Assembly (NCBI GenBank): GCA_025642075.2
Contig: JAODUO010000481.1
Coordinates: 332,001-396,000 of the forward strand
Origin: Ridgeia piscesae
Taxonomy: Eukaryota; Annelida; Polychaeta; Sabellida; Siboglinidae
Direction: 5' to 3'
DNA: 64,000 nt
Below are positions 25,301 to 34,300 of the stretch, piece after piece; position 1 is the stretch's first letter; each line of letters starts with the position of its first letter. The notes beneath the pieces were generated by a model. The model had not been told where the DNA came from. It saw nothing but the letters and a program-made list of their open reading frames with translations, and ran no database searches. The position numbers and the translations under genes are program-made.

Positions 25301-28300
25301 TTGTTTAGTTTTACATATTAACCACACAAATGGAGATGTTCTCTTATTACCATGTTGTTTAGTTTTACATATTAACCACACAAATGGAGATGTTCTCTTA
25401 TTACCATGTTGTTTAGTTTTACATATTAACCACACAAATGGAGATGTTCTCTTATTACCATGTTGTTTAGTTTTACATATTAACCACACAAATGGAGATG
25501 TTCTCTTATTACCATGTTGTTTAGTTTTACATATTAACCACACAAATGGAGATGTTCTCTTATTACCATGTTGTTTAGTTTTACATATTAACCACACAAA
25601 TGGAGATGTTCTCTTATTACCATGTTGTTTAGTTTTACATATTAACCACACAAATGGAGATGTTCTCTTATTACCATGTTGTTTAGTTTTACATATTAAC
25701 CACACAAATGGAGATGTTCTCTTATTACCATGTTGTTTAGTTTTACATATTAACCACACAAATGGAGATGTTCTCTTCTCAGTTTTATTACGTTACAAGT
25801 ATTGCAAGATTAACAAATCACACAATTTTGATTGTAGACCTTAGACAAATTACAATATATACATAATTACAGCTACAATTAAATTATGGAAATAGGATAA
25901 CAATTATATAAATTATCTTCCAACTAGAGTAGCCTTGAACAAAATAACAATAAAAATGTCCACATAATGTTCCACCACTGTCTAAAGTTCACATTGTAAT
26001 CATTATGAAGATATACTACAATTTACAGCACTTATAATAAGACATAACTCAACACAAACCCTTGATATCAAACATAATTTCAAAATGTAGACCTCACCAC
26101 TGGCATTGACAGGTGATTGTTATTTGTAGACACCAGTTTGTCAGTTTACCTCATGACCTGGCGGCTTCACAAAGTACGGCAGTTTCCCACGTTGCCAGTC
26201 GTTCAACACCATCTTGGCCATTGTACTGAGGTCTGCATGACCTCCCTGAAACGAACAGCTTTAGTCTGTAATGATGTTAGACACGATATATGATGACTAC
26301 AAACATGAAGGTGCTAGCAGGAAGCCCATACAGGGCAACCCTGTACACAATGATACTTCACCTTTTGAGAGACGTTGACCTTAATTGTGAAGTGGCTGTA
26401 ATATTGAGATAACTATACAGTGAGGTTTGACTGTAGATAGATATAGCATGAAGAGCAGTGGTCTACCACAATTATTTCAGAATAGAGAACTGTAAGGGAC
26501 TTTGTAAACCTTTGACACAAAAGCAATGTTTGTGAAGTAACAATGTAGATAATACACAGGAAAGTATTCACCATGACAGACATAAATAAATAAAATCAGA
26601 CCACATTTATGTTGAGAGTTGTTATGAATCAGTCCCAGTCTGTGTCGAGTACACTACCTTGAGCAGTTTGCCGCTGCGGTGGGCGAGCTGCTCCAGGAAG
26701 TCTTCTGGGTCGGTCCATGACGAGATGTGATATGTCTTCTCTATGTAGTCCTTGCGCACACGCTCCAGCACCGCCCCGATGTAGTCCTCTGGCGCCCGCA
26801 CGTTCTCCACTCGCACCTGGGCAGAGGTGACACATGACACAGAGAGAGGTGGCATGTGACAGAAAGAGGTGATATGTGACAGAGAGAAACAGAGAGGTGA
26901 CATGTGACACGGAGAGAAAGATGACTCTCAAGTGGTGTAAGAAAGTAAGTTCTTATATAACGGGACGATCTCGACTGCTCAAAAGATTTTACCTGTCACC
27001 CCCCCAACAGACCCGCCCAAATGAACACCATGGCAACTGATAGTGAAGTATTCAGCCATGCTGCAATTACTGCAACGTGGAGGGAACAAACTTGCTCCTG
27101 GTTTAAAAATAAATTATACAGATTAATAATAATAAAAAAATTATGTGGAGTTTCACATATGAGGTACTTATCTATTACAATATAATATTTTGTTATTACT
27201 GACATGACATAAATATACCTATGTGACCGTCTGAAACACAGATACACGTATTGCACAATACTGCTAATACATGATTACTATAACTATACAAACATGCAGA
27301 TTATGTATGTATTTTGTTAATTAAAAAGCTGAATGCAGAAAGTTGTGTTTACTTACAACACCTTTGAGCACAATCTCTGTCTGTGACTCGCCAGTGGGAT
27401 ACACAACCCCAGGGCAGTCAATGAGGAAGATCCGCTTCATCAGGGTCACATACTGCCACACCTGGGGTAAATAGGCTACAGGGTCACATACTGCCACACC
27501 TGGGGTAAATAGGCTACAGGGTCACATACTGCCACACCTGGGGTAAATACCGTACAGGGTCACATACTGCCACACCTGGGGTAAATAGGCTACAGGGTCA
27601 CATACTGCCACACCTGGGGTAAATACCGTACAGGGTCACATACTGCCACACCTGGGGTAAATAGGCTACAGGGTCACATACTGCCACACCTGGGGTAAAT
27701 ACCGTACAGGGTCACATACTGCCACACCTGGGGTAAATAGGCTACAGGTCACATACTGCCACACCTGGGGTAAATACCGTACAGGGTCACATACTGCCAC
27801 ACCTGGGGTAAATAGGCTACAGGGTCACATACTGCCACACCTGGGGTAAATAGGCTACAGGGTCACATACTGCCACACCTGGGGTAAATAGGCTACAGGG
27901 TCACATACTGCCACACCTGGGGTAAATACCGTACAGGGTCACATACTGCCACACCTGGGGTAAATAGGATACAGGGTCACATACTGCCACACCTGGGGTA
28001 AATACCGTACAGGGTCACATACTGCCACACCTGGGGTAAATAGGGTACAGGGTCACATACTGCCACACCTGGGGTAAATAGGCTACAGGGTCACATACTG
28101 CCACACCTGGGGTAAATAGGTACAGGGTCACATACTGCCACACCTGGGGTAAATAGGCTACAGGGTCACATACTGCCACACCTGGGGTAAATAGGGTACA
28201 GGGTCACATACTGCCACACCTGGGGTAAATAGGATACAGGGTCACATATTGCCACACCTGGGGTAAATAGGCTACAGGGTCACATACTGCCACACCTGGG

Positions 28301-31300: not shown

Positions 31301-34300
31301 AGGATACAGGGTCACATACTGCCACACCTGGGGTAAATAGGCTACAGGGTCACATACTGCCACACCTGGGGTAAATAGGCTACAGGGTCACATACTGCCA
31401 CACCTGGGGTAAATAGGATACAGGGTCACATACTGCCACACCTGGGGTAAATAGGGTACAGGGTCACATACTGCCACACCTGGGGTAAATAGGCTACAGG
31501 GTCACATACTGCCACACCTGGGGTAAATAGGTACATGGTCACATACTGCCACACCTGGGGTAAATAGGCTACAGGGTCACATACTGCCACACCTGGGGTA
31601 AATAGGATACAGGGTCACATACTGCCACACCTGGGGTAAATAGGGTACATGGTCACATACGCCACACCTGGGCTAAATAGGGTACATGGTCACATACGCC
31701 ACACCTGGGCTAAATAGGGGGTCACATACTGCCACACCTGGGCTAAATAGGGTACATGGTCACATACTGCCACACCTGGGCTAAATAGGGTACATGGTCA
31801 CATACTGCCACACCTGGGGTAAATAGGGTACATGGTCACATACTGCCACACCTGGGCTAAATAGGGTACATGGTCACATACGACCACACCTGGGCTAAAT
31901 AGGGTACATGGTCACATACTGCCACACCTGGGCTAAATAGGGTACATGGTCACATACGGCCACACCTGGGCTAAATAGGGTACATGGTCACATACTGCCA
32001 CACCTGGGCTAAATAGGGTACATGGTCACATACTGCCACACCTGGGCTAAATAGGGTACATGGTCACATACTGCCACACCTGGGCTAAATAGGGTACATG
32101 GTCACATACGGCCACACCTGGGCTAAATAGGGTACATGGTCACATACGGCCACACCTGGGCTAAATAGGGTACATGGTCACATACTGCCACACCTGGGGT
32201 AAATAGGGTACATGGTCACATACTGCCACACCTGGGCTAAATAGGGTACATGGTCACATACTGCCACACCTGGGCTAAATAGGGTACATGGTCACATACT
32301 GCCACACCTGGGCTAAATAGGGTACATGGTCACATACTGCCACACCTGGGGTAAATAGGGTACATGGTCACATACTGCCACACCTGGGCTAAATAGGGTA
32401 CATGGTCACATACTGCCACACCTGGGGTAAATAGGGTACATGGTCACATACTGCCACACCTGGGCTAAATAGGGTACATGGTCACATACTGCCACACCTG
32501 GGCTAAATAGGGTACATGGTCACATACTGCCACACCTGGGCTAAATAGGGTACATGGTCACATACTGCCACACCTGGGGTAAATAGGGTACATGGTCACA
32601 TACTGCCACACCTGGGGTAAATAGGGTACATGGTCACATACTGCCACCTGGGTAAATAGGGTACATGGTCACATACTGCCACACCTGGGCTAAATAGGGT
32701 ACATGGTCACATACTGCCACACCTGGGCTAAATAGGGTACATGGTCACATACTGCCACACCTGGGGTAAATAGGGTACATGGTCACATACTGCCACACCT
32801 GGGCTAAATAGGGTACATGGTCACATACTGCCACACCTGGGGTAAATAGGGTACATGGTCACATACTGCCACACCTGGGGTAAATAGGGTACAGGGTCAC
32901 ATACTGCCATACATGGGGTAAATATGTTACAGGGTCACATACTGCCACACCTGGGGTAAATAGGGTTACATACTGCCATACCTGAGGTAAAATTTAATAG
33001 AGTAACAATATTTGGCCTCAATATATTAATGTAACATTTAATTGAGTTGACTTGACAATGGCAAAGAAAGAAAACTTGCATGTCTGCCATGACCAATCAT
33101 TGCCAACGTTACACAGAGACTTGACCAACCGAGAGACTCATACCTTTGTTTCTCCGGCAATAGGCGCCACTTTGCAGACTTTCTTTGCCCGCAGTGTGTT
33201 GATGATGGAGCTCTTGCCAACATTTGGGTAACCAATGAAACTCACACTGATTTGCTTCTTATCCGAGTCAAGCTGCAATAACACCAGAAAGGGATGATTA
33301 CACCAGGAAAACACTCTTTTAAAACTGCCATCATGGTTAGAGACATGACTGACATATTTATTTAGCTCTACTTTGCATTTTTCTATAGCTCGTGAACATA
33401 ATAAAAAGAAACACTTTTTCTGCAGTTAACTGGAAAGGAGTGTTCCGTATTCGTACCTTGCCGAACTGCCGCAGTAGACTAATGAGTGCTCCCTTGCCAA
33501 ATGAGTTCGTAATACTTGCATGGAAGGCGAGAGTTGGGTATTCAGCAGACAGAATCGATACCCACTTTTGCTGAAAAACACATTTAAATTCACCGAAATA
33601 AAAGTAAAACAACAAGTAATGCAGCAACTCAAGGATTTAGAGGATTAGTAAAATTATCTGTGCCTATTATTAGTTAGTCTATTCCACTACCACATATATC
33701 ATTATCTAACATTTTCATGTGTGTCTGTGTGTGTGTGCGCACGTGCGCGCGCGCGCGCATGCTTGTGTGCACTTTTTAGGTACATATAGGTTTTTCACAA
33801 TAACTAACCAGCTAGAGCGTTACTTTTCAATATTTTCTTACAGATTTAGGTAGGTCTCAGAAATAACAAAACCAAGTACATTTAAAACATTACGATGCTT
33901 TTCTTAAACAAATCAAGCTTGTAAAGAAGCTCACCGTGACCCAGGTGGGGACAAGGTCACACTTGTTGAGGATAAAGAAGAGATGTTTGTGTTGTTTCTC
34001 CTTGCGCAGGTATCGCTCGATGTAGCTGGAGCGTGTTCCCATCGGGTCCCTGGCGTCCAACACCTGAACTACCACGTCCGACGAATCTACCACCTACAGC
34101 CAATGGACAAAATTTGACCGATACTGTCACCTTACAACAGTCAGAATACCATTGCATACACACTCACATATATACAGTGGAACCCCTCATTTAAGACCGC
34201 CCCCCAAATCAGATTGGGGCGGTCTTAAAAGAGGGGTGGTCTCTCGTGAGGGGTTTGCAACATTCAACACTAGGGGGCGCTTACAACGACTAACATCAAC

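Follow-up and report, generated by a model that had tools for sequence, protein, structure and literature searches.

A 38-bp minisatellite carrying 146 acceptors spans the exon 10 splice junction of GNL2 in the tubeworm Ridgeia piscesae

Duplicated splice junctions are known from human genes, and at one of them, the 844ins68 insertion of CBS, the sites involved are reportedly 3′ splice sites, to go by the title of Romano 2002 as cited. This insertion copies the intron 7/exon 8 acceptor (PMC2630376, PMC7490669) and the distal of the two sites is strongly favoured (PMC2630376); the sites are termed donors in PMC2630376 and 3′ splice sites in PMC7490669. In human ABCA7 a variable number tandem repeat (VNTR) of about 12 to 427 units of 25 bp begins with the exon 18 donor; usage of the donor in the following unit is 2 ± 1%, and skipping of exon 19 rises with VNTR length (PMC5954066). 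Here we analyse a 64,000-nucleotide window from the vent tubeworm Ridgeia piscesae (contig JAODUO010000481.1, positions 332,001 to 396,000 of the forward strand; coordinates below are positions within this window), in which a 38-bp minisatellite spans the acceptor of exon 10 of the gene GNL2. The initial annotation of this DNA regarded an amplified splice junction as something undescribed, a view contradicted by the ABCA7 VNTR, a 31-bp VNTR in CBS and CBS 844ins68 (PMC5954066, PMC2630376, PMC7490669). An acceptor amplified to such a copy number was not found among the papers listed by literature searches, which covered open-licence papers.

The junction array in intron 9 of GNL2

GNL2 (also NOG2 or NUG2) lies on the minus strand, with exon 1 in an open stretch at 44277-44399 that contains the first residues of the annotated R. 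piscesae protein, and exons 2-15 read from 42061 down to 16312. Its product is a GTPase that acts in 60S ribosome assembly. The exons joined from the window are 100% identical, over 699/699 queried residues, to the annotated 726-residue R. piscesae GNL2, and the conserved GTPase core with its P-loop and DCPG, together with a match to a solved GNL2 sequence at E 1.1e-81, places the protein in the GNL2/Nog2 GTPase class. Exon 9 (33144-33272, minus strand) ends at the donor AAAG|GTATGA at 33143, which pairs with U1 at -5.7 kcal/mol. Exon 10 (27357-27461, minus strand, 105 nt, VWQYVTLMKRIFLIDCPGVVYPTGESQTEIVLKGV) shares its first 21 bases with the array unit and holds the DCPG, which we take as the G3 motif. 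The residues at the 9/10 junction, GETK|VWQY, are present in two solved GNL2/Nog2 sequences, presumably the human and yeast ones, and because this stretch is conserved and the joined protein is identical to the annotated one, exon 10 can be placed at 27461, where the initial annotation had it. Its AG at 27462-27463 is the real 3′ splice site and the final one of 146. A GTAAGT donor sits 105 nt past this acceptor, followed by an intron 10 of 540 nt.

Tandem Repeats Finder reports the array at 27444-32971 with a period of 38, 146.0 copies and 96% matches. A unit parse of the minus strand, which extends it to 27441-32981, found the anchor TATGTRACC 147 times, with an AG acceptor directly ahead of the exon-like part in 146; the first exon-like base is at 32981 and the real one at 27461. 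One exon copy, at about 32903, is without its AG, leaving 145 decoys and the real site, and 145/146 non-terminal copies retain the AG. Each unit joins the opening 18-21 bases of exon 10 to intron-like sequence with an acceptor at its end, and neighbouring decoys are mostly 38 nt apart. Downstream of the AG, 81/145 decoys share 18 bases with the real site and 45 share 21 (another number in 19), and the 18 exon bases are unchanged in 128 of the 146 acceptor-bearing copies. The commonest unit, on the coding strand GTGTGGCAGTATGTGACC then ATGTACCCTATTTACCCCAG, makes up 41/145 of the stretches between successive acceptors, which fall into 28 distinct types. A 32-base unit pattern with N positions matched 117 times in the window, compared with a mean of 0.00 in 100 shuffles. 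These counts bear out the initial description of about 145 tandem, near-identical decoy acceptors ahead of exon 10, built from the intron-exon junction with 18-21 coding bases. The 38-bp repeat pattern had no match in viral contigs.

The edges of the array suggest how it arose. Between the exon 9 donor and the first decoy acceptor lie 162 nt (32982-33143, minus strand) ending in ATTTTACCTCAG, an ending unique among the 146 acceptors, while the first array copy, GTATGGCAGTATGTAACC, still codes for Val-Trp-Gln-Tyr-Val-Thr. We infer growth of the array between a former intron end on its left side and the exon still in use on its right. Identical unit types are clustered (45/144 neighbouring pairs are identical, against 22.5 ± 3.9 in shuffles), as expected from local duplication. 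A second AG, 5 nt upstream (TTTAGCCCAG), is present in 41/146 acceptors at 29885-32798, which are among acceptors 5 to 82 counted from the exon 9 side; there are none of this type among the last 64 before exon 10. In the 128/145 units of exactly 38 bp, the minor-variant frequency is 0.0065 at positions 1-18 and 0.051 at positions 19-38, although we make no claim of stronger conservation of the exon part, since the variant types number 4 and 7 and the units are not independent.

The copy number rests on the assembly and may be inexact. The R. piscesae assembly of PMC9921365, Illumina only with a contig N50 of 10.42 kb, could hardly span such arrays; in the extracts of that paper, tandem repeats are named in the methods and no statement on junction arrays was found. 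The present window, however, contains zero N across its 64 kb and eight long arrays, and so probably belongs to another, long-read assembly. Furthermore, the 28 unit types cluster among neighbours as local duplication would give, and both array edges run into non-repeated sequence. It is accordingly very improbable that misassembly accounts for the length of the array or for the order of its units.

Choice among 146 acceptors

To read the consequences of each choice, exon 9 was joined to each of the 146 acceptors and read through exon 12 without further splicing. The frame is open only from 27461, so the normal coding product, in agreement with the annotated protein, would come from the exon-adjacent copy. 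All 145 decoys lead to a premature stop 6 to 207 nt past the join, most commonly at 51 nt (66 decoys), 30 nt (39) or 21 nt (22), in keeping with the loss of frame that the initial annotation had predicted. Since exon 10 is 105 nt long, its skipping would stay in frame, removing the DCPG (G3) motif. Both outcomes could serve a leaky dosage control, in which array length sets the fraction of transcripts lost to decoy joins or to in-frame skipping of exon 10 and thereby tunes GNL2 between individuals, a role also proposed for the ABCA7 VNTR; longer ABCA7 VNTRs go not only with more skipping of exon 19 but also with lower expression (PMC5954066). The near-complete retention of the AG among non-terminal copies, however, shows neither upkeep for use nor purging, and we regard such control as unlikely.

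What distinguishes the real site is not found in its immediate surroundings. The decoy at 27840 is base-for-base equal to it from -128 to +21 (149 bases), and 16/145 decoys show identity to it for 38 nt or more upstream and 20 nt or more downstream. The identity at 27840 means that the choice cannot rest on nearby upstream sequence, and that the discriminator is further downstream or positional. A UNAC motif lies 22 nt ahead of the AG in 134/146 acceptors of the array and at 15 to 21 nt in the remaining 12. For the real site, the UNAY motif predicts a candidate branch point at 27484 (minus strand), the A of TGTGAC, 22 nt upstream of the AG and within the exon copy of the penultimate unit. The branch site can thus lie inside the array, one of the options the initial annotation had offered. 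Its concern that a branch point lying ahead of the array would lead to use of the wrong AG is not compelling, given that nearly every unit carries a branch-point candidate of its own.

A minisatellite has grown on this splice junction, and we consider it probable that its 145 upstream copies are bypassed through exon definition. Tandem duplication across the acceptor would place extra copies on the intron side, with the mRNA unchanged while the last AG is used; because the last junction would be left intact, growth should cost little provided that the last site is used. Only this last acceptor is backed by exon body beyond +21 and by a donor 105 nt on, with which exon definition would pair it, and each acceptor would use a branch point inside the exon copy of the preceding unit. 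Some decoy joins may happen, followed by decay or re-splicing. Transcripts with premature stops would be lost through nonsense-mediated decay. The expected outcome would be mostly correct splicing, with some decoy use near the array edges and some skipping of exon 10.

Published competing-site data from human cells lend this proposal partial support. Exon definition favours the sites closest across the exon, and where 3′ sites are separated by 20 nt or more, the choice is typically made when they are first recognized (PMC9225289). The preference for the distal site in CBS 844ins68 and the low off-unit use in ABCA7 are precedents for an exon-adjacent copy being the one mainly used (PMC2630376, PMC5954066).

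Several observations weigh against bypass of the decoys. Overall, 3′ sites in the human data favour the upstream site, and long flanking introns reduce this bias without abolishing it (PMC9225289), which is why the support is only partial. The decoys are transcribed ahead of the real site, and the first of them gives a 162-nt intron, a length at which intron definition could probably operate. As far as can be told, the identical annotated protein is a gene model. In place, the decoy donors CCCAG|GTGTGG pair with U1 at -7.1 kcal/mol, compared with -5.7 for exon 9 and -5.1 for exon 10, and as they outpair both native donors, cryptic exons could form within the array. The specificity of the UNAY motif is low, with at least one in the scanned range of 13/14 GNL2 acceptors. 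RNA folding gave no sign that the decoys are hidden, three units folding worse than shuffles (z +1.69), and structure hiding the decoys was rejected on this basis; the last array units folded together with exon 10 gave a z of -1.85.

The order of transcription, the short intron and the upstream preference in human data could also be taken further, to mean that the first decoy is the main acceptor by intron definition and that this GNL2 allele yields little protein. Yet the GNL2 frame is intact over the exons read and matches conserved relatives, and a near-total loss of GNL2 protein would hardly be tolerable; of the explanations considered here we give this one the least credence.

The bases that follow the decoy acceptors raise a different prospect. 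A GT stands directly after the AG in 140/145 decoys (141/146 acceptors), and in 138/145 decoys the sequence is GTGTGG. Joining exon 9 to such a decoy gives AAAG|GTGTGG, for which U1 pairing comes to -5.6 kcal/mol, close to the native exon 9 donor (-5.7) and within the range of -3.0 to -9.6 spanned by 19 native donors; rarer decoy starts give -3.9 to -6.2. A decoy join would thus recreate a donor of roughly native strength, and mis-spliced transcripts could be re-spliced. Under recursive splicing, intron 9 would be removed stepwise: each decoy join would restore a donor directly after exon 9, from which the decoy would be spliced out in a further round, and so on up to exon 10. Known recursive sites place an acceptor next to a donor and have a short RS-exon downstream (PMC8605326, PMC6224609), and in the GNL2 array the next donor-like CAG|GTGTGG is 38 nt on. 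A second acceptor array in the window, in REXO1 (below), has 22 decoys that likewise start with GT (AAG|GTTCAG, -4.1 kcal/mol). However, GT starts 6/18 tested exons of both genes, the two array exons included, and two of two would occur by chance in about 11% of cases; for the same reason AG|GT was rejected as a shared cause of both acceptor arrays, although both exons start with GT. The e6|e7 and e13|e14 joins rebuild stronger donors (-6.7 and -6.8 kcal/mol) without having a junction array, the exon junction complex represses such sites in human cells (PMC6224609), and the correct 9|10 join would be equally exposed to re-splicing, which would skip exon 10. Recursive splicing here seems to us doubtful. 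Its fullest form, a splicing staircase of about 140 recursive sites some 38 nt apart along which the transcript would walk to the true exon, strikes us as slightly more doubtful again. If true, it would mean that self-correcting sites let minisatellites settle on splice junctions, and would explain the like build in REXO1.

Minisatellites in REXO1 and elsewhere in the window

REXO1 lies on the plus strand, in convergent orientation to GNL2. Homologues were found that include annelid, mollusc and priapulid sequences; the R. piscesae REXO1 protein was not among 120 of 298 matches listed, for which the length limit of the search may be the reason. At 11470-12980 (plus strand), Tandem Repeats Finder and a unit parse identified a second junction-spanning minisatellite, of 67 bp, with 23 acceptors TAG|GTTCAGTGG, 22 of them decoys. 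The first bases of the adjoining REXO1 exon (12953-13091, plus strand, beginning FSGLTEKDLAGVETTLRDVQAVLLSLF) are part of the 67-bp unit, in which most of the first 39 exon bases are repeated, and the build is the same as that of the GNL2 array. The frame is open from the last acceptor only, 22/22 decoys reaching a stop before the end of exon 12953-13091, and UNAC lies 22 nt ahead of the AG in 21/23 acceptors. This array would fit the same logic of a bypassed set of upstream copies.

On the donor side, a 35-bp minisatellite (36329-38241, minus strand, Tandem Repeats Finder) begins at position +5 of GNL2 intron 5, with 50 decoy donors TAG|GTGTGT along its length. It adjoins exon 5 (38246-38344, minus strand), whose own donor is GAC|GTAAGT at 38245. 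The decoys pair with U1 at -5.8 kcal/mol and the real donor at -5.4, and reading through exon 7 gives a premature stop for 50/50 decoy donors. Here the mirror image could apply, with the first donor being used. Neither the REXO1 acceptor array nor the intron 5 decoy donors were part of the initial annotation's account of the exon 10 junction.

Five further long minisatellites lie within REXO1 and GNL2 introns: a 61-bp repeat at 1-2691, ahead of the first REXO1 exon visible in the window; 47-bp, 24-bp and 27-bp repeats at 7580-11292, 16646-17559 and 17989-24433; and a 54-bp repeat at 25177-25777 that ends 38 bp ahead of the exon 13 acceptor. In the last two GNL2 introns (16411-24648), minisatellite makes up 95% and 73%. 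Together the eight arrays cover 23,270 of 36,067 bp (65%) in the 19 introns counted, a count that excludes GNL2 intron 1 and in which the window edge truncates the first REXO1 intron. With so much of the counted intron sequence taken up by arrays, a passenger origin is plausible, and the most economical reading is that the junction array is a tolerated passenger in minisatellite-rich introns and not a device selected for splicing.

Splice junctions as preferred seeds for arrays were considered and set aside, the association being not clearly above chance for 8 arrays and 37 junctions. The chance of at least two acceptor-spanning arrays is P 0.067, that of at least two arrays at any junction P 0.215 and that of at least three P 0.046, although the intron 5 array, which starts at +5, counts only loosely in the last. 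Four of 15 array ends are at most 40 bp from a junction (P 0.086).

Elsewhere in the window, an open stretch at 43316-43771 (minus strand) resembles a LINE-type reverse transcriptase (GVPQGT..., FADDC), as named by eye. Scans of the 64-kb window against Rfam, at the gathering threshold, and for tRNA genes gave no match. In extracts of the tubeworm genome papers PMC10192322 and PMC8789280, no mention of tandem repeat or minisatellite was found. The present window suggests that further cases of this kind may exist in tubeworm introns, where they are liable to be missed by gene predictors and by short-read mapping.

Comparison with known splice-junction repeats

Experiments on how one 3′ splice site is chosen from several equivalent ones usually rely on two engineered copies. 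This window supplies a natural test: a single intron has 146 acceptors, the neighbouring gene adds 23, and GNL2 also carries 50 decoy donors. As the most similar decoy agrees with the real site over 149 bases, the effects of position and of downstream exon signals can be assessed on their own. The array further illustrates the extent to which a minisatellite can expand across a coding junction with the frame still open.

Among described elements that share features with the GNL2 array, two belong to other phenomena. As in recursive splice sites or ratchet points, a GT directly follows the acceptor and the rebuilt donor is of about native strength, but in the cases described such sites are single or few in long introns (PMC8605326, PMC6224609), whereas GNL2 has 140 putative ones about 38 nt apart. 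As in intron gain through AGGT tandem duplication (PMC4974935), the duplicated sequence carries AG|GT; in GNL2, however, the intron has a donor and a left-edge acceptor that are separate from the array, and the array lengthens this intron. The birth of intron 9 from such a duplication is contradicted by the 162 nt that precede the array, with their own donor and their own intron end ATTTTACCTCAG.

The closest relatives are the human splice-junction repeats. In the intron 18 VNTR of ABCA7, too, the splice site of a coding exon is part of a minisatellite, the canonical site is the exon-adjacent copy and off-unit use shifts the frame (PMC5954066). There, however, the site is a donor and the VNTR is intronic from the exon edge onwards (PMC5954066), whereas in GNL2 it is an acceptor and the unit contains a branch-point motif, the acceptor and 18-21 coding bases. 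CBS 844_845ins68 resembles the GNL2 unit in its composition, having a copied intron end with acceptor and 16 exon bases, and in that the distal of near-identical acceptors is used and the mRNA is normal; it differs in having two copies against 146, and 52 intron bases in the copy (PMC2630376, PMC7490669). The 31-bp VNTR of CBS is likewise a tandem array that, to judge from its designation c.1444_1467+7, straddles an exon/intron boundary, although it lies on the donor side and has far fewer copies, 16-21 units (PMC2630376). With 146 acceptors in units that run into the adjoining exon 10, the GNL2 array belongs with these splice-junction VNTRs, of which it is an acceptor-side variant, the human cases being mostly at donors.

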